From the NCBI GenBank assembly GCA_902792495.1, contig CADBAC010000028.1, positions 1 through 11,809 of the forward strand: 11,809 nt of DNA, written 5' to 3'. The notes beneath the pieces were generated by a model that was not told the DNA's origin, did not search any database, and worked only from the letters and a program-made list of their open reading frames with translations. A program made the position numbers and the translations under genes. This DNA comes from Ruminococcus flavefaciens (GTDB lineage: Bacteria > Bacillota > Clostridia > Oscillospirales > Ruminococcaceae). Below, piece by piece: positions 2,052 through 11,521 of this stretch (its first letter is position 1; the number at the start of each line of letters is the position of its first letter).

Positions 2052-2090
2052 AACAAGATAACACATTGATATTGTGCAAGTATACAAAAC

Positions 2091-2105
2091 TCACTCAAAG
2101 AGTGA
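2091..2105. promoter_or_regulatory. Upstream operator of the moron cassette (perfect inverted repeat)
   Basis: TCACTC-AAA-GAGTGA is a perfect 6-3-6 inverted repeat. It lies 18 bases upstream of the -35 box and 41 bases (about four helical turns) from a second, nearly identical copy. It is followed by a T-rich stretch, so a weak terminator hairpin is an alternative reading. The matched second copy favours an operator, probably for the HTH protein encoded at 2445-2615. Confidence 0.6.
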
Positions 2106-2123
2106 TTATTTTTTTAAAAGCTA

Positions 2124-2152
2124 TTGACATTTCACTCAATGGGTGATATAAT
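2124..2152 (+). promoter_or_regulatory. Perfect-consensus sigma-A promoter of the moron cassette with operator in its spacer
   Basis: TTGACA (2124-2129), then exactly 17 bases, then TATAAT (2147-2152). The spacer holds TCACTC-AAT-GGGTGA (2132-2146), a 6-3-6 inverted repeat with one mismatch that copies the upstream operator. A protein bound here would block RNA polymerase directly. The predicted transcript starts near 2159 and carries an AAGGAGG ribosome site at 2191-2197 before the first gene. Confidence 0.85.
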
Positions 2153-2202
2153 ATAATCAAGGAAAACGAAACACGACCGCCCGATAGGGTAAGGAGGATT
2201 TT

Positions 2203-2436
2203 ATGATGTATACACTTACAGCTATCAAAGCAATCGCAGAGTCCGCTAACGATGTAGAAGTTCAGGACGCTATATTAGTACATCTCAACAAAGACAAGTT
2301 CAATGACGGCGACTGTGTACTTTTCGGATATAGCATTGATGATTTCGAGAACGATAATGATATTACCGATGCACTTATAAATAATACACCAATATCCGAT
2401 TATACCGTTGATGATAATGGCATATATCACGCTTGA
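2203..2436 (+). CDS. Small acidic protein of unknown function (anti-CRISPR-like candidate)
   Basis: A 77-residue protein not recognised as any known family. It holds 13 Asp and 3 Glu against 3 Lys and no Arg, so it is strongly negative (about -13) and could be a DNA mimic. The acidic residues cluster in the second half (SIDDFENDNDITD, then TVDDNG). No membrane helix or signal peptide is seen. AAGGAGG lies 5 bases before the ATG at 2203 and 8 before a second ATG at 2206, so the start may be either. It is the first gene after a perfect promoter with two operators and is followed directly by a small HTH gene, the arrangement of anti-CRISPR (acr-aca) operons and of some toxin-antitoxin or other morons. 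Codon use is more AT-rich than the flanking late genes, consistent with separate acquisition. The Acr role is inference from context only. Confidence 0.7.
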   Translation: MMYTLTAIKAIAESANDVEVQDAILVHLNKDKFNDGDCVLFGYSIDDFENDNDITDALINNTPISDYTVDDNGIYHA

Positions 2437-2444
2437 TAAAAGCT

Positions 2445-2615
2445 ATGACTATAAAAGAACTTCGTACCGCCTGCGGTATGACTCAGAAAGCATTTGCAGA
2501 ATACTTCAGTATTCCGAAAAGATCAATTGAGAATTGGGAAGGCGGAACAAGAAATGCTCCGGAATATCTGATAGAACTTATGGAATACAAATTAAGAAAA
2601 GAGGGGCTTATATAG
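2445..2615 (+). CDS. Small XRE-type HTH regulator (Aca-like)
   Basis: A 56-residue DNA-binding protein, almost entirely one helix-turn-helix. TIKELRTACGMTQKAFAEYF and IPKRSIENWEGGTR are the XRE-family helices 1-4, with the recognition helix around IPKRSIENWE. A basic C-terminal helix (LMEYKLRKEG) may dimerise. The start is uncertain: ATG 2445 is preferred by the usual MTIKEL beginning of relatives, but TTG 2433, overlapping the upstream TGA, would add four residues. Neither has a clear ribosome site, so translation is probably coupled to the upstream gene. The natural target is the pair of TCACTC-N3-GAGTGA operators in its own promoter, giving autorepression as described for Aca proteins, which are of similar size (about 60-80 residues). 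HTH membership is firm; the Aca role is inferred. Confidence 0.8.
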   Translation: MTIKELRTACGMTQKAFAEYFSIPKRSIENWEGGTRNAPEYLIELMEYKLRKEGLI

Positions 2616-2626
2616 CCTCTTTTTTT
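2597..2626 (+). terminator. Terminator of the moron cassette
   Basis: GGCT (2605-2608) pairs with AGCC (2614-2617) around TATAT. AAAAGA/TCTTTT extends the stem across a 2-base GG bulge, ending in TCTTTTTTT. The HTH stop codon (2613-2615) lies inside the hairpin. It closes the cassette as an independent transcription unit. Confidence 0.65.
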
Positions 2627-2913: not shown

Positions 2914-4419
2914 TCAGAATAGCGATATTTCGAGAGAAAAGGGGACAGGGTGCCATTTATCGCGGATGTCAGTTTCTCGGTGGTAGGTGATAGCCTTGAC
3001 AGCCGCCCGGAGCAAGCGGTTCTTTTCTTCGGCAGAAGCCGCTTCGTCTTCAAGCACCTTGACAGCTTCCTGGAGCGCGATATATCTCTGCTGATAGTCT
3101 ATGTCTGTAATTTCCATAGCCTTAGCTTCCTCGATAGCTTCCTGCAATTCCTTACGTCTCTGAGCGAGAGCTGCGTTACGCTTCACAAATACCTCGCTGG
3201 TATATATGCCTTGTTCGAGGAATTCATATAATCGGTCCTGCTGAGTCTCCAGGGCGTTGAGCTCCTTCTGCAAGTTAGCTGTGATAGCCTTATGCGCTTT
3301 CGGAGTTTCTGCTGAGTTGCCATTCAGCATCTCTTTCAGATCTGCCGCGAGACTGCGCAGAGCCTTGATGACTTCTTCCTCAACCTCTGCATAAGTAGCC
3401 GAGCGATTACCGCACCGCATCTGATATGCACAGTGGAGACGCGGTGCGCTCGCACGCTGAGGCTGGTATATCATCGGCCTGCCGCAGGAGCAGCGGAGTA
3501 TACCTGCGAATGGATTACACAAGCCGGATGCTGCCTTAACCTTCGGCACCGCACCGAACTTAGCGAGGGAAGCGTTGAACGTCTCTTCGGATATGATCGG
3601 CTCATGCTTGCCATCAACGAGGATCCAGTCTTCTTTCTTGGACTTCGGGCGCGAAGAAATGAGCTCACCGTCTTCATACTTCTTGATAGTTTTTCTCCAG
3701 TTCCAGCGAATCTTTCCGATGTATACGGGATTTCTGAGCATATCTCTTACGCTGGCGCTGCTCCAAAGTTCGGACTTCCTCGGTCTGATATGCAGAGCAT
3801 TAAGGCGATTAGCGATAGTAGTAGTGCCGAGGCCCTCTTTCGTCCATAGCTCGAACATGAGGCGCACGGTATCGGCTTCGGCATTAGGAGCGAGAGTGTA
3901 CGACTTTCCGACTTTGATCTTATCGTACCCGAAAGGCGGCACTGAGCCTATGAAGTTACCCTCATTCACGGAAGCCAAGCGCCCGCGGTTCATGATCTCT
4001 TTGATGTATTCGAGGTAGTCATTGCCTCGCATCAGTTCCATTTCAAAGAACTTCCTGTCGAACTTCTCCGCGAGGTCGTATGTCTTCGGCGGCGTGATGA
4101 TAAGAGTATCGGTATACCGGAACGCTCTGATTATAGTACCGCAGTCTGAAAGGTCGCCTCGGCTGAGTCGCTGGGGATCCACTACAAGAACGCCTGTTAT
4201 ATCCTCGGCCTGAATACGGTCGAGGATTTTTTTCATTTCAGGGCGGTCCTGGATGGTTTCGCCGGAGACTACTTCCCGATAGATATATTCTTCCGGTATA
4301 GCTCCGCCGAGCTTGCTGACAGCATAGTCTTGCAAGATGCGGTAATGCTTCGCCAGGACTTCTTCAACTGACTCATGCTCACCGTCAGCTCGTGACTTTC
4401 TGAGGTATATCAGATACAT
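2914..4419 (-). CDS. int: Large serine recombinase / phage integrase
   Basis: A 501-residue site-specific recombinase that integrates and, with a directionality factor, excises the phage through a Ser-DNA covalent intermediate. Residues 1-~145 are the resolvase catalytic domain: YLRKSR holds the nucleophile Ser9, and VVDPQRLSRGD (79-89) holds the conserved Arg residues. Residues ~150-285 are the recombinase DNA-binding domain (GSVPPFGYDK, and ELWSSASVRDMLRNPVYIGK). The zinc ribbon uses Cys310, Cys312, Cys330 and Cys336. A long charged coiled coil (~350-470) follows, as usual for synapsis control. Length is within the family's normal range and no disruption is seen. The ATG has AAAGGAG six bases upstream. 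It is the last gene of the leftward lysogeny module, separated from the exonuclease gene by a hairpin. No excisionase/RDF was identified in the window. Confidence 0.95.
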   Translation of the reverse strand: MYLIYLRKSRADGEHESVEEVLAKHYRILQDYAVSKLGGAIPEEYIYREVVSGETIQDRPEMKKILDRIQAEDITGVLVVDPQRLSRGDLSDCGTIIRAFRYTDTLIITPPKTYDLAEKFDRKFFEMELMRGNDYLEYIKEIMNRGRLASVNEGNFIGSVPPFGYDKIKVGKSYTLAPNAEADTVRLMFELWTKEGLGTTTIANRLNALHIRPRKSELWSSASVRDMLRNPVYIGKIRWNWRKTIKKYEDGELISSRPKSKKEDWILVDGKHEPIISEETFNASLAKFGAVPKVKAASGLCNPFAGILRCSCGRPMIYQPQRASAPRLHCAYQMRCGNRSATYAEVEEEVIKALRSLAADLKEMLNGNSAETPKAHKAITANLQKELNALETQQDRLYEFLEQGIYTSEVFVKRNAALAQRRKELQEAIEEAKAMEITDIDYQQRYIALQEAVKVLEDEAASAEEKNRLLRAAVKAITYHRETDIRDKWHPVPFSLEISLF

Positions 4420-4468: not shown

Positions 4469-5383
4469 TTATTCAGTAACAAAAAGGTTTTCAAGGTCAA
4501 TTTCTTTTCTGTCTGCAACTATACATTTGAAGAGTTCACCAGCTGCATAGCTATCATATAGTGCATTGTGTGCGTTGCAAATATAGATATTGTTAAGCTC
4601 ACATATGTCCTTTAATTTATAACTGTAATGATCTTTATATGTTCTGCGGCTTAGCGATAGAGTATCATATACGGTTTTATTTTCGACCGAATCCAGTCCA
4701 TTAACATACAAATGCTTTATATCAAAAGGAGCATTATGTGCTACAAGCGGCATATCCTCTATAAATTCATTAAAGCTGTCGATTATTTGGTAGAACCGAG
4801 GTGATTTTTCGACCATATCGTCAGATATACCGTTGATTTCAGTTGCTGTTTCAGGTATTGGCTTTCGTGGCTTTATGTAAGTATTAAATGCCTCAACAGG
4901 GCTGAAATCTTTATATTTTACTGCCGAGAGCTGGATAATATCGTTTCCGCCTGTTTTTAATCCGGTAGTTTCAACATCAACGGCTATAAAATCCTTAATA
5001 CTTTTGATAGGGGTAGATTTTGTTATGTTCTTACACTCTTTATCAACTATATTTATTTCCGGATTTCGATTTCGCTTTTCGTCGGACAGTTTTATTTCAA
5101 ACAAAGGAAGATTATCAACAACTGCTTTGAATTCTGAATGCTTTTTACTCAGAAATTCTTCGCGTCTTTTGGCAGCTTCTTTTCTTTCGTTTTCTCGTTG
5201 AATAGCTTTTTGTTCCTCTTCAAGTCTTCGTTGTTCTTCTATTCTCGCTCTTTCGATTGCTTCAAGTTGTGCTTTTTGCTGAGCAAGTTTTTTAGGATCA
5301 TTTTTATAAGAATATACAGCCCACAGAATTAGAAATAATAAAACTGAGATTATGAATACAAAGAATAATATGACATCTCCCAT
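4469..5383 (-). CDS. Membrane-anchored DnaQ-like (DEDDh) 3'-5' exonuclease
   Basis: A 304-residue protein with three parts. Residues ~3-25 (DVILFFVFIISVLLFLILW) form one N-terminal membrane helix; the following KNDPKK suggests the rest is cytoplasmic. Residues ~33-80 are a highly charged Glu/Arg/Lys/Gln coiled coil. Residues ~130-295 are an RNase T/DnaQ-fold exonuclease: FIAVDVETTGL supplies D136 and E138, VAHNAPFDIKHL supplies D221, and NAHNALYDSYAAGELF supplies H272 and D277. All DEDDh residues are present, so it should be active on DNA or RNA ends. It follows the cI repressor by 13 bases, with AAGGTGAT overlapping the cI stop, so it should be made in the lysogen. This setting suggests a superinfection-exclusion or defence role at the membrane; replication or repair use is the alternative. 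Domain calls are firm, the role is inferred. Confidence 0.85.
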   Translation of the reverse strand: MGDVILFFVFIISVLLFLILWAVYSYKNDPKKLAQQKAQLEAIERARIEEQRRLEEEQKAIQRENERKEAAKRREEFLSKKHSEFKAVVDNLPLFEIKLSDEKRNRNPEINIVDKECKNITKSTPIKSIKDFIAVDVETTGLKTGGNDIIQLSAVKYKDFSPVEAFNTYIKPRKPIPETATEINGISDDMVEKSPRFYQIIDSFNEFIEDMPLVAHNAPFDIKHLYVNGLDSVENKTVYDTLSLSRRTYKDHYSYKLKDICELNNIYICNAHNALYDSYAAGELFKCIVADRKEIDLENLFVTE

Positions 5384-5396
5384 AGCTATATCACCT

Positions 5397-6056
5397 TCAT
5401 ACAGATTTTATGATTTTTTTAACTACGCCGACTATCTTGATCGCATCTAATTCGGGACCAGCAAACGACATAGGCGGATATGCAGGATTGATAGATTCCA
5501 GCGTGAGTTTGTTCTTAGATTGGAAGGCTCGCTTCACAAATCCATCGTTTTCACCGCATACGATAGCAACAACAATGTCACCGTTCTCAAAGCAGTCCTG
5601 CTTATGGACTATAACGAGATCATCCTCTTCGATTTTCGGATACATTGAATCTCCTTTGACAGCAATAGCGATAGTTTCCTCAGCTTCGCTCGGATTATTC
5701 AAATATATCGGTTCGTATCCAATAACATGATTATCTGCGTAAGCACCAAAACCGGCAGAAACACTTCCGAAGATAGGGATCATATAGATATTATCTTTAT
5801 TAAGAACATTAAAACCGTGATATTCATTACTATCAGACAGAGAGGGTTCGTTACAAGTCACAGTATTGCCGAGCAATCTATCAGAAGATATGCCGAGCGT
5901 TTTACAGATATTCAAGATAACAGAAGTATTGATGTCACGCTCCCCTCGTTCATAAGAAGCATATGTGCGAGCATTCATATTAAGCGTTTCAGCGAACTCT
6001 TTTTGAGAAAGCTTCATTTCTTTGCGAATGCTCTTTAAATTATCTTCTACTGACAT
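5397..6056 (-). CDS. CI-like phage repressor (XRE HTH + S24/LexA-type peptidase)
   Basis: A 219-residue lysogeny repressor. Residues ~7-62 are an XRE helix-turn-helix (LSQKEFAETLNMNARTYASY, then ERGERDIN). Residues ~92-215 are an S24 self-cleavage domain: the expected cleavage site is Ala101-Gly102 in SVSAGFG, the catalytic Ser137 lies in VKGDSMYPKIEEDD, and the catalytic Lys175 lies in GFVKRAF. It should repress lytic transcription as a dimer and be inactivated by RecA-stimulated autocleavage after DNA damage. The ATG has AAGGAGG at 8-base spacing. It is transcribed leftward from a promoter whose spacer contains one of its likely operators, implying autoregulation. The divergent gene encodes a Cro-like protein. 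All catalytic residues are present, so the switch appears functional. Confidence 0.95.
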   Translation of the reverse strand: MSVEDNLKSIRKEMKLSQKEFAETLNMNARTYASYERGERDINTSVILNICKTLGISSDRLLGNTVTCNEPSLSDSNEYHGFNVLNKDNIYMIPIFGSVSAGFGAYADNHVIGYEPIYLNNPSEAEETIAIAVKGDSMYPKIEEDDLVIVHKQDCFENGDIVVAIVCGENDGFVKRAFQSKNKLTLESINPAYPPMSFAGPELDAIKIVGVVKKIIKSV

Positions 6057-6088: not shown

Positions 6089-6117
6089 ATTATAACACAC
6101 AAACTGTGTCGAGTCAA
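6089..6117 (-). promoter_or_regulatory. Leftward lysogeny promoter (PRM-like) for cI-exonuclease
   Basis: Read on the - strand: TTGACT (6117-6112), 17 bases, then TATAAT (6094-6089). Operator ACAC-AAACT-GTGT (6097-6109) fills the spacer. The cI ribosome site follows at 6065-6071. Confidence 0.85.
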
Positions 6118-6241
6118 GTAGAATTTAAAACACGAAATGTGTTAAAATTGCACATAGAATAACAACACGATTTGTGTAGTATTACGGTATTGACAAACTA
6201 CACAAAACGTGTTATAGTATACACATAAACACGAAACGTGT
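6097..6241. promoter_or_regulatory. Five-copy operator array of the lysogeny switch
   Basis: Five copies of ACAC-N5-GTGT lie at 6097-6109, 6130-6142, 6165-6177, 6200-6212 and 6229-6241. The last is a perfect 15-base 6-3-6 palindrome, AACACG-AAA-CGTGTT (6228-6242). Start-to-start spacings are 33, 35, 35 and 29 bases. Copies 1 and 4 lie in the 17-base spacers of the leftward and rightward promoters, copies 2 and 3 lie upstream of their -35 boxes, and copy 5 covers the rightward start site. CI and the Cro-like protein are the obvious ligands. Confidence 0.9.
6190..6218 (+). promoter_or_regulatory. Rightward early promoter (PR-like)
   Basis: TTGACA (6190-6195), 17 bases, then TATAGT (6213-6218). 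Operator ACAC-AAAAC-GTGT (6200-6212) fills the spacer, and a second operator covers the expected start site. It drives the Cro-like gene and the early operon. Confidence 0.85.
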
Positions 6242-6260
6242 TGGAAAGTAAGGTGATAAC

Positions 6261-6467
6261 TTGGAAACAGTATTCATGAACATTCGTGCTGAGTGCGTAA
6301 GGAATGGCATTACAATCGAAGAACTAAGCCGGAAACTCGGTATTGAAAGAAAGACGTTCTACAACTGGGAAAGCAAGAAAGATTTTCCGACAAGCTATCT
6401 TGTAAGAATGGCAAACATCTTTCGTGTAACTACCGATAACCTGCTTGGCATCACAGCGGAACAGTAA
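6261..6467 (+). CDS. Cro-like XRE-family regulator
   Basis: A 68-residue single-domain HTH protein. IRAECVRNGITIEELSRKLG and IERKTFYNWESKKDFP form the HTH, followed by the typical MANIFRVTTDNLLGI tail also seen in XRE repressors. The TTG at 6261 is preferred because AGGTGAT lies about 5 bases upstream; the internal ATG at 6276 would leave the ribosome site about 20 bases away. It is the first gene of the rightward early operon and divergent from cI, the position of Cro, so it probably binds the same ACAC-N5-GTGT operators with a different preference and helps commit to lytic growth. The use of TTG may keep expression low. HTH identity is firm; the Cro role is by position. Confidence 0.85.
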   Translation: METVFMNIRAECVRNGITIEELSRKLGIERKTFYNWESKKDFPTSYLVRMANIFRVTTDNLLGITAEQ

Positions 6468-6978: not shown

Positions 6979-7218
6979 ATGAAAAACGATATCAGGAACT
7001 GGCAGGAGACCGAGACCGAGACCGAACGCATCGTGAATTACGATACCGACAAGGCGCATATCACGGTCCACATTCCGAAGCGAACTCCAGTGGAGCAAGC
7101 GGAGTACGAGAAGAGGATGCGTGCGGCACTGAGAAGGTTTTATCATCATGTCACTGTCGAGCGCGGCTATGACTGGGATGAACTTGTTGCGAAACACGAA
7201 GACGACTTGTGCAGTTGA
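6979..7218 (+). CDS. Small phage protein, unknown function
   Basis: A 79-residue protein with start ATG 6979 preceded by GAGGTGAT; the frame upstream to 6892 is open but lacks a better start. The N-terminal ETETETER is a dipeptide repeat encoded by GAGACC repeats. The middle (DTDKAHITVHIPKRTPVEQAEYEKRMRAALRRFYHHV) has a strand followed by a basic helix, an arrangement common in short phage proteins of unknown role. The C-terminus is acidic. The stop codon lies inside a 16-base palindrome at 7209-7224. No enzymatic motif is present and the protein is not assigned to a characterised family. Confidence 0.65.
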   Translation: MKNDIRNWQETETETERIVNYDTDKAHITVHIPKRTPVEQAEYEKRMRAALRRFYHHVTVERGYDWDELVAKHEDDLCS

Positions 7219-7224
7219 CTGCAC
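7209..7224. repeat. Palindrome GTGCAGT-TG-ACTGCAC, copy 1
   Basis: A 7-2-7 perfect inverted repeat that overlaps the stop of the upstream gene and sits just before the next ribosome site (GGAAAGGAG). A copy with CA in the centre lies at 8486-8501, and a one-mismatch copy lies at 10784-10799. Confidence 0.75.
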
Positions 7225-7239
7225 GGAAAGGAGAGCAAT

Positions 7240-8482: not shown

Positions 8483-8485
8483 GTT

Positions 8486-8501
8486 GTGCAGTCAACTGCA
8501 C
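8486..8501. repeat. Palindrome GTGCAGT-CA-ACTGCAC, copy 2
   Basis: Same 7-2-7 inverted repeat as at 7209-7224, with its two central bases changed from TG to CA; this makes it the exact reverse complement of copy 1. It lies in the gap between the 8246 gene and the PcfK-like gene, again just before a ribosome site (GAAAGG). Flanking TTGTGCAGT and AGAAAGG resemble copy 1. Confidence 0.75.
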
Positions 8502-8517
8502 AGAAAGGCAGGATTTC

Positions 8518-10519: not shown

Positions 10520-11521
10520 ATGAATGAAATCATAACAACAGAAGATATGCTCCCGGCCACAGCGAGAGCAGTAATGATAACAGAGCGCATCAAGTCTAAC
10601 GGCAGGGCGGCAGTGAACGCAGTCTGCATGATAGGCAAGGACCTGCGCACGATGAAGATAGACAAGCTGTATACCTCTCTCGGCTATGCTGAATTTGAGG
10701 ACTATGCCGAGAAGGAATTTCAGATAAAGCGCCGACAGGCGTATCAGTACATATCAGTCTATGAAAAGCTCGGCGAGGAGTTTGTGCAGTCAAATGCACA
10801 GCTCGGAATTACAAAGCTCGCACTCCTGGCAGCGGCGAATCCTGAGGACCGTGCCGAGGTGATGGAGAACAAGGACGTATCGGATATGACATCGAAGGAA
10901 CTTGAAGAAGCTCTCGCCAAGTGCAAGCAGCAGGGAGAACAACTCTCAATGTTAGAGGAAGAGAATACCGAGCTGAAGAACGCCGCCAAAGGCAGGGAGG
11001 AACTTGAAAAGGAGCTCGAAGAATACCGCAGGCGTTGCATAGAACAGCAGGACAAGCTCGATGCACTTGAAAAAGAACCGAAAGACGTAGAGATTCAGAC
11101 GAAAGAAGTCATCAAGGAAGTTCCTGACAAGAAGACAGAAAAAGAGCTGGCGGCAGCGAAGAAAGCTCAGAAGGCGACAGAAAAGGAACTGCAAGAAGCT
11201 CAGGAAGCAAAGAACAAGGCAGAGAAGGAACTCGCAGCAGTAAAGAGGGAACTGGAAGCCAAGACCTCGGAGCTTCAGAGAGCAACGGTGAAACCGACAG
11301 AGAGTTCAGACAAGAGCAGCTTCAAGCAGATGCTTGCCAGTGCTTACAAAGAAATGACTGGACTCATTGAGTTTGTCAAAACATCGGAGCCGGAAGACAG
11401 AGAGCTCTTCCTTCGGAAAGCTCTTGAAATCCTTACAGCTTGCAAGACAGCTCTTATGCAGATAGATCCTTGCGTAGGAGTTCCGGCGGAATCAGAGGAA
11501 GACGATGGAGAGGCTGACTGA
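10520..11521 (+). CDS. KorB/DUF3102-like DNA-binding coiled-coil protein
   Basis: A 333-residue protein with start ATG 10520 after AAAGGAGG. Residues ~50-115 (YTSLGYAEFEDYAEKEFQIK, then RRQAYQYISVYEKLGEEFVQ, then LGITKLALLAAANPEDRAEV) form an HTH of the ParB/KorB-like type, in which a 'kRqayqyi..Y..l' recognition helix is followed by 'lgitKl..La'. Residues ~124-255 are an almost unbroken charged coiled coil with repeated AEKEL, ATEKEL and KNKAEKEL units. A conserved-looking C-terminal helical domain (~265-318) and an acidic tail follow. Such proteins in clostridial phages and plasmids may be partition-like, DNA-bridging or regulatory. It has no ParA partner in the window, so true partition is not supported. 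A variant copy of the operon palindrome lies within its own gene at 10784-10799. Confidence 0.7.
   Translation: MNEIITTEDMLPATARAVMITERIKSNGRAAVNAVCMIGKDLRTMKIDKLYTSLGYAEFEDYAEKEFQIKRRQAYQYISVYEKLGEEFVQSNAQLGITKLALLAAANPEDRAEVMENKDVSDMTSKELEEALAKCKQQGEQLSMLEEENTELKNAAKGREELEKELEEYRRRCIEQQDKLDALEKEPKDVEIQTKEVIKEVPDKKTEKELAAAKKAQKATEKELQEAQEAKNKAEKELAAVKRELEAKTSELQRATVKPTESSDKSSFKQMLASAYKEMTGLIEFVKTSEPEDRELFLRKALEILTACKTALMQIDPCVGVPAESEEDDGEAD
10784..10799. repeat. Palindrome GTGCAGT-CA-AATGCAC, degenerate copy 3
   Basis: Matches copy 2 at 15 of 16 bases, with one stem mismatch. It lies inside the KorB/DUF3102-like coding region, where it encodes VQSNAQ, so it may be partly constrained by protein sequence. 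A chance match cannot be excluded. Confidence 0.4.

Follow-up and report, generated by a model that had tools for sequence, protein, structure and literature searches.

Organization of the cassette and its surroundings

The stretch of DNA analysed here (the window, 11,809 nucleotides) is the whole of one contig (C28) of a Ruminococcus flavefaciens MAG that is 79.6% complete. It carries a compact two-gene cassette with the following features.

2072..2088, plus strand: upstream element TTGTGCAAGTATACAAA, ending 2 bp 5' of the distal operator
2091..2105, no strand assigned: putative distal operator, a 15-bp inverted repeat, TCACTCAAAGAGTGA, with perfect arms
2124-2129, plus strand: -35 box TTGACA, from the promoter search
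2132..2146, no strand assigned: putative proximal operator, an inverted repeat, TCACTCAATGGGTGA, with one mismatched pair, filling the promoter spacer
2147-2152, plus strand: -10 box TATAAT, from the promoter search
2153..2202, plus strand: leader with ribosome-binding site
2203..2436, plus strand: acidic cargo ORF, 77 aa, net charge -13
2445..2615, plus strand: HTH ORF, 56 aa from an ATG start, HTH_3 above cut-off, probable autorepressor
2596..2626, plus strand: intrinsic terminator hairpin (-16.1 kcal/mol, z -4.1), overlapping the HTH stop codon

The promoter matches the consensus at 12 of 12 positions (TTGACA / 17 bp / TATAAT), bearing out the perfect promoter claimed in the preliminary description. 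The other elements named there were recovered as well: two matching inverted repeats, 41 bp apart; a small, very acidic protein, with 13 D, 3 E, 3 K and 0 R in 77 aa; an HTH gene of about 56-60 residues, which encodes 56 aa from the ATG or 60 aa from an alternative TTG start at 2433; a private terminator; and a place between lysis genes and integrase, which Pfam resolves as an M23 lysin upstream (1400-1993) and a serine recombinase downstream (2914-4419, minus strand). Absent from that description was the exact fit of the second repeat into the promoter spacer, in the order TTGACA, 2 bases, 15-bp repeat, TATAAT. The HTH ORF begins 8 nt past the cargo ORF and stands at the end of the operon, the position expected of an Aca gene. 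The 2091-2105 repeat is terminator-like on both strands; a terminator reading of the repeats was rejected because the same repeat recurs in promoter spacers.

The lysin and recombinase flanks are confirmed by Pfam only in the window and in L145. By eye, an integrase-like ORF is present in the cassette stretches of L129 (L012), L010, L118 (L018) and L123 (L013), and a lysin-like ORF in those of L129, L118, L123, L146 (L138) and L033, with other genes intervening in several of these loci.

We made some further observations on the window. A run of 16 T follows right after the cassette terminator (2654-2669). Between the integrase and the repressor, the ORF at 4469-5383 encodes a DEDDh-type exonuclease domain (RNase_T), preceded by a hydrophobic N-terminal stretch and then a charged linker. 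Several ACACGAAANGTGT-like repeats occupy 6090-6245, between an S24-type repressor gene (5397-6056) and a Cro-like gene (6261-6467), and to the eye this region is likely the lysogeny switch. In the early region, the near-palindrome TTGTGCAGTCAACTGCACAG occurs three times (7207-7226, 8484-8503 and 10782-10801), two of its copies directly preceding genes; its first bases are similar to the TTGTGCA with which the upstream element of the cassette starts.

The operators and the HTH protein

With at most one mismatch allowed, the operator consensus gives four strand matches in the window, where shuffles averaged 0.07 and none of 200 reached four. Loci encoding relatives of the HTH protein were drawn from viral contigs, genomes and phage records; once loci sharing the upstream 300 bases plus the match had been merged, and those with fewer than 60 bases upstream dropped, the set comprised 145 distinct loci. 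In 64 of these, the window included, a palindrome sits in the spacer of a sigma-70-like promoter within 1400 bp, compared with 14 among 725 shuffles of upstream regions. To the eye, a few of the 64 promoters (L024, L101) seem spurious; they were retained, here and in the cargo count given below. Counting by operator sequence, on another list of 64 loci that leaves out the window, we found an operator at most 800 bp upstream in 12 loci, and 15 sites in 51,200 bp of upstream DNA against 2 in 403,240 bp elsewhere, these two also lying in promoters, further upstream. The other 81 of the 145 loci have no spacer palindrome, which counts against a general model. YCAC-N7-GTGR was found within 1500 bp in none of eight palindrome-less loci rechecked with looser rules, among them HTH relatives at 64-73% identity (L032, L034, L014); in L023 and L025, palindromes of other kinds occupy promoter-like positions some 1 kb upstream.

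Two operators at 41-bp spacing also occur in L012, L013 and L018. This tandem pattern was found in 15 viral contigs, of which three with 41-bp and one with 42-bp spacing encode the HTH protein and the other 11 do not, and in 1 of 396 family genomes, that of the host; no viral contig contains the window's exact promoter. The upstream element occurs once in the window. Its core, TTGTGCAANTATAC, is shared by 16 of 142 loci, which comprise copies of the window and of L012/L013/L018, together with L047 and, with two occurrences each, L033 and L138/L142.

The HTH protein consists of one small domain and has 213 database relatives at E 1e-5. Relatives are encoded in 23 phage records (protein search), in 76 of 391 class genomes at E 1e-7 and in 5 of 60 genus genomes, the host being included in both genome counts. 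HigA2, Aca10 and 2ppx tie as its best structural matches. In sequence, the similarity to Aca10 is weak (phmmer E 0.86); R36 of the HTH protein aligns with Aca10 R44, and Aca10 Q37 falls on E29. R44 is reported to be needed for the DNA binding of Aca10 (PMC9410881). The preliminary description had predicted an Aca-type repressor, and this prediction gains from the operator in the core promoter, from the covariation of operator and residues described next and from the presence of Aca10 among the tied structural matches. Because of the spacer operator, the covariation and the correspondence of R36 with Aca10 R44, we regard the protein as probably an Aca10-like autorepressor of its own promoter.

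Comparison across loci also supports the view that the HTH protein would read this very operator. Mutual information was computed between HTH columns and operator positions in the 64 loci with a spacer palindrome, the input including 12 of the 23 phage records and loci from the search of the 391 class genomes, among others. For operator base 5 the strongest column is residue 30 (z 20.6 for all 64 loci, 18.1 for the 49 with Pro24, a subset that drops 15 of the 64 rows), and for base 6 it is residue 36 (z 14.4 and 9.8, respectively). Within the Pro24 set, D30 goes with G at base 5 in 38 of 42 half-sites, N30 with T or C in 46 of 46, Q30 with T in 2 of 2, S30 with A in 4 of 4 and A30 with A in 1 of 2. 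At base 6, C accompanies R36 in 74 of 76 half-sites and other residues in 0 of 22. After one further row (E30) is dropped from the test, which leaves 48 rows and 96 half-sites, 91 of the 96 agree with the code, a score reached by none of 20000 permutations; after collapse to 18 clusters under 60% identity, 32 of 34 agree, again with none of 20000 permutations reaching this. The residue-30 code was derived first on part of the loci and then applied to all. Related sequences are not independent, for which permutation corrects only in part. The window fits the code, with N30 and T or C at base 5 and with R36 and C at base 6. In loci with Ser24, N30 goes with A at base 5, and hence the code does not extend to the whole family.

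The relatives of the HTH protein also bear on a different explanation of the cassette, namely a toxin-antitoxin pair in which the acidic protein would be the toxin and the HTH protein the antitoxin and autorepressor, with the toxin gene first as in HigBA or MqsRA. HigA2 shares the best structural match with Aca10, the best NCBIfam match is the MqsA antitoxin family, at a score far under the cut-off, and distant relatives are paired with kinase-like or RelE-like genes (names given by eye). The pairing with a kinase-like gene is seen in L071, L074, L081 and L088-L090; in L074, L081, L088, L089 and L090 the HTH lies within a 168-aa protein, followed by a gene that we take to be kinase-like from its RSSKGNQLKF motif, and an AAAATTT-centred palindrome lies in the promoter, so that these five loci form a possible toxin-antitoxin branch of the family. 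For the window itself we think the toxin-antitoxin explanation unlikely, since the HTH protein is one small domain, the cargo matches no toxin family, two HTH types accompany a single acidic cargo family, and L143 carries the window's acidic family without this HTH (see below).

Other relatives serve other genes. Some are fused to a domain that looks nucleotidyltransferase-like by eye, in L072 (3995-4477), L073, L075 and L080, all four with the same operator type in the promoter spacer. In L037, L046, L062, L066, L147-L149 and others, very short peptides, several of them hydrophobic, are encoded between operator and HTH. From 3998 onward in L064, an HTH stands in frame with an NAD-synthetase-like protein (so named by eye), a possible fusion or else an accident of the reading frame. 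It follows from these associations that the regulator alone is no marker of anti-defence cargo.

Cargo exchange and the proposed role of the acidic protein

The promoter region of the window aligns with those of L012, L013 and L018, where the cargos are unrelated, and the leader is partly conserved in all three although the cargo differs. In 39 cargo-first cassettes, 48 cargo ORFs fall into 42 families; since ORF calling relied on start codon and ribosome-binding site, a few may be false. For ten cargos of related cassettes there was no Pfam match above cut-off and no PHROGs match better than E 0.03, and eight of the ten, searched against NCBIfam, gave none above cut-off. The exchange can be followed in one acidic cargo family, first met in L018 with an HTH of the window's type. 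In L138, a prophage region of a same-genus genome, two cassettes stand head to head, each starting with TTGTGCAAGTATAC, and one of them encodes an acidic protein 85% identical to the L018 cargo beside a 119-aa HTH protein that resembles the window's HTH type in its C-terminal part only, at 38% to the other HTH of L138. In L033 (Ruminococcus flavefaciens SAb67), two cassettes lie in tandem, their promoter repeats covering 94 and 61 nt at 81-82% identity, and one of them again combines the L018 cargo family with the 119-aa HTH type. L145 carries an L018-type cargo (71%) between a recombinase 63% identical to that of the window and an M15 lysin. The comparison thus supports promoter and HTH gene as what appears to be a reusable frame for the exchange of unrelated small cargos.

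The acidic protein of the window belongs to a real family. A single-sequence query yielded 5 clusters and a profile 22, none of them named; identities run from 45 to 78%, in an alignment that omits the window's own protein (P0001) and a 58-aa shifted variant (P0005). Net charge lies between -11 and -17 in 21 of 21 aligned members, and the conserved core is found around QDAILVH and DGDCILFGYS. No named family scored above cut-off in searches that included Pfam and NCBIfam, and there was no PDB sequence match, and no similarity to a known Acr; nor did the phage collection contain any similar DNA. A structure model built before the wider alignment reached a pLDDT of 68.6, and a fold search with this low-confidence model gave no match at E 0.001. 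Among viral contigs, the family was found nowhere with a four-sequence alignment and at one locus with the wider one. It occurs in 1 of 394 order genomes and in 4 of 297 family genomes at E 0.01, where only the window's own match is convincing, the other three (9e-4 to 3e-3) lying inside long frames. Perhaps the protein is a DNA mimic.

In locus L143, the window's acidic family is present at 45% under another promoter, the spacer of which holds a different palindrome, TATCACATGTGATA, and no relative of the window's HTH was found in the 8.2 kb of this locus. This 29-bp promoter occurs there in two identical copies, at 2707-2735 and 3831-3859, one ahead of the family's gene and the other ahead of a further acidic ORF (125 aa, pI 4.4) 1.1 kb upstream. 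This repeated promoter looks like a second kind of shared-promoter frame and counts for the idea of a shared frame. Downstream of the acidic gene, L143 also encodes an RHH-like protein of 68 aa, for which RHH_1 and DUF6290 both fall slightly short of the cut-off; a terminator-like hairpin, at -20 kcal/mol with flanks, separates its gene from the acidic gene, so that the RHH-like gene may not regulate the acidic gene, and this weighs against regulators having simply been changed. On the upstream side, 1.4 kb from the acidic gene, is the end of a protein that matches DUF3560 above the cut-off and ArdC-N below it, and between the two lies a zinc-ribbon-like protein with a 46-residue stretch at 59% to the cargo of L036.

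We consider it fairly probable that the locus is a self-repressing prophage moron cassette, with an early anti-defence protein as its most likely cargo. On this proposal, the strong promoter would fire on phage entry, and the acidic protein would be made at once and act as an early anti-defence protein. The HTH protein, made from the shared transcript, would then bind the spacer repeat and also the second repeat 41 bp upstream, about four helical turns away, and so shut the operon down. We infer both the repression in the cell and its timing. Given the exchange between cargos and regulators, the orphan cargos and the repressed promoter, we prefer an early anti-defence role for the protein to membership in a fixed toxin-antitoxin pair.

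The preliminary description had gone further and proposed an anti-CRISPR protein with its Aca. The layout is that described for acr-aca operons in PMC9410906, and Cas1 was found in 14 of 60 genus genomes. Set against this, Cas1 was found neither in the host MAG, 79.6% complete as it is, nor in any of the five genus genomes that carry the HTH, host included, a result that is uninformative because chance gives it with probability 0.25; Cas1 as a marker moreover would miss systems that have no adaptation module. The nuclease domain of Cas9, HNH_4, was found at any size in 11 of 60 genus genomes and within a frame of Cas9 size in only 2 of the 60, the host match lying in a 146-aa frame, and the cargo lacks similarity to any Acr and matches no named family. 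In the same source, Acrs that were known, candidate or putative accompanied only 386 of 2599 Aca-like proteins (15%), and an Aca-like gene alone is for that reason weak evidence for an acr. The anti-CRISPR claim in particular is therefore one that we do not uphold, and activity of the acidic cargo against CRISPR-Cas seems to us unlikely. The host MAG has a partial match to the type I restriction protein HsdR, which makes restriction an equally open target. Of the wider claim, the anti-defence role holds by analogy only, with the changing orphan cargos and the place beside lysin and integrase, and that the acidic cargo would act against any defence system at all strikes us as close to an even call.

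The same place between lysin and integrase, the orphan cargo and the small hydrophobic peptides in some related cassettes would suit a lysogeny-phase moron whose target is the host itself (host takeover) or superinfecting phages (superinfection exclusion) and not a defence system. We find this rather doubtful: a repressed strong promoter would fit an early burst better than constant lysogenic expression, and the acidic gene of L143 has an ArdC-N-like protein nearby (DUF3560 over the Pfam cut-off, ArdC-N under it).

Going beyond the window, we tentatively propose that Clostridia prophages may share a plug-in frame consisting of the upstream element, one or two operators in the promoter and an Aca10-like repressor with residues 30 and 36 specifying the operator. 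This frame would serve for the exchange of dozens of orphan cargos unrelated to one another, most of them putative anti-defence genes, and the acidic family of the window would be a new, DNA-mimic-like one that moves to other regulators too. This larger picture is plausible to us, and we do not yet lean towards it.

Significance and comparison with known systems

With no sequence in common, anti-defence genes are difficult to find, and to our knowledge few are known from gut Clostridia phages. A searchable frame of promoter, operator and repressor, with a readable protein-DNA code, offers a handle on the orphan cargos of these phages. If the plug-in frame proves true, the two-residue code would find cassettes and predict, from sequence, which repressor silences which. 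Residue 36 corresponds to R44 of Aca10, and so the code also yields testable predictions, at the level of single residues, for repressors of the Aca type. No title on this cassette appears among the literature matches listed, a coverage largely outside subscription papers and preprints.

Our verdict is that the cassette would work like an acr-aca operon, with good support on the side of the regulator. According to PMC9410906, Acas found with Acrs are mostly 60-65 aa, and acr-aca operons always have one repeat in the core promoter and, in several families, a second; the cassette shares with them the small HTH gene at the operon end and the inverted repeat in the core promoter. It differs from the acrIC7-acrIC6-aca10 operon (PMC9410881) in containing no known acr. 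Aca10 itself comes from Pseudomonas, whereas the host of the window is a Ruminococcus, of the Clostridia; the outer operator bases differ, and the sequence similarity is the weak one given above (E 0.86). The distinction from the DNA-binding domains of HigA2 and MqsA is that the window's HTH protein is a single domain of 56 residues and its partner no known toxin.

Two further comparisons extend to the cargos. In the aca5/aca9 anti-defence clusters, as portrayed in PMC7648647, the cargos were assayed, whereas those of the cassette are known from sequence alone; there too, unrelated small genes stand beside one HTH marker, and anti-restriction genes lie nearby, for which L143 may be compared. 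The anti-defence genes of archaeal viruses that are marked by regulatory sequences (PMC11065993) differ in that the cassette has a bacterial sigma-70 promoter, an operator in the spacer and a linked repressor gene; in those viruses, as in the cassette, a conserved strong promoter and a regulatory sequence precede small early genes that change.
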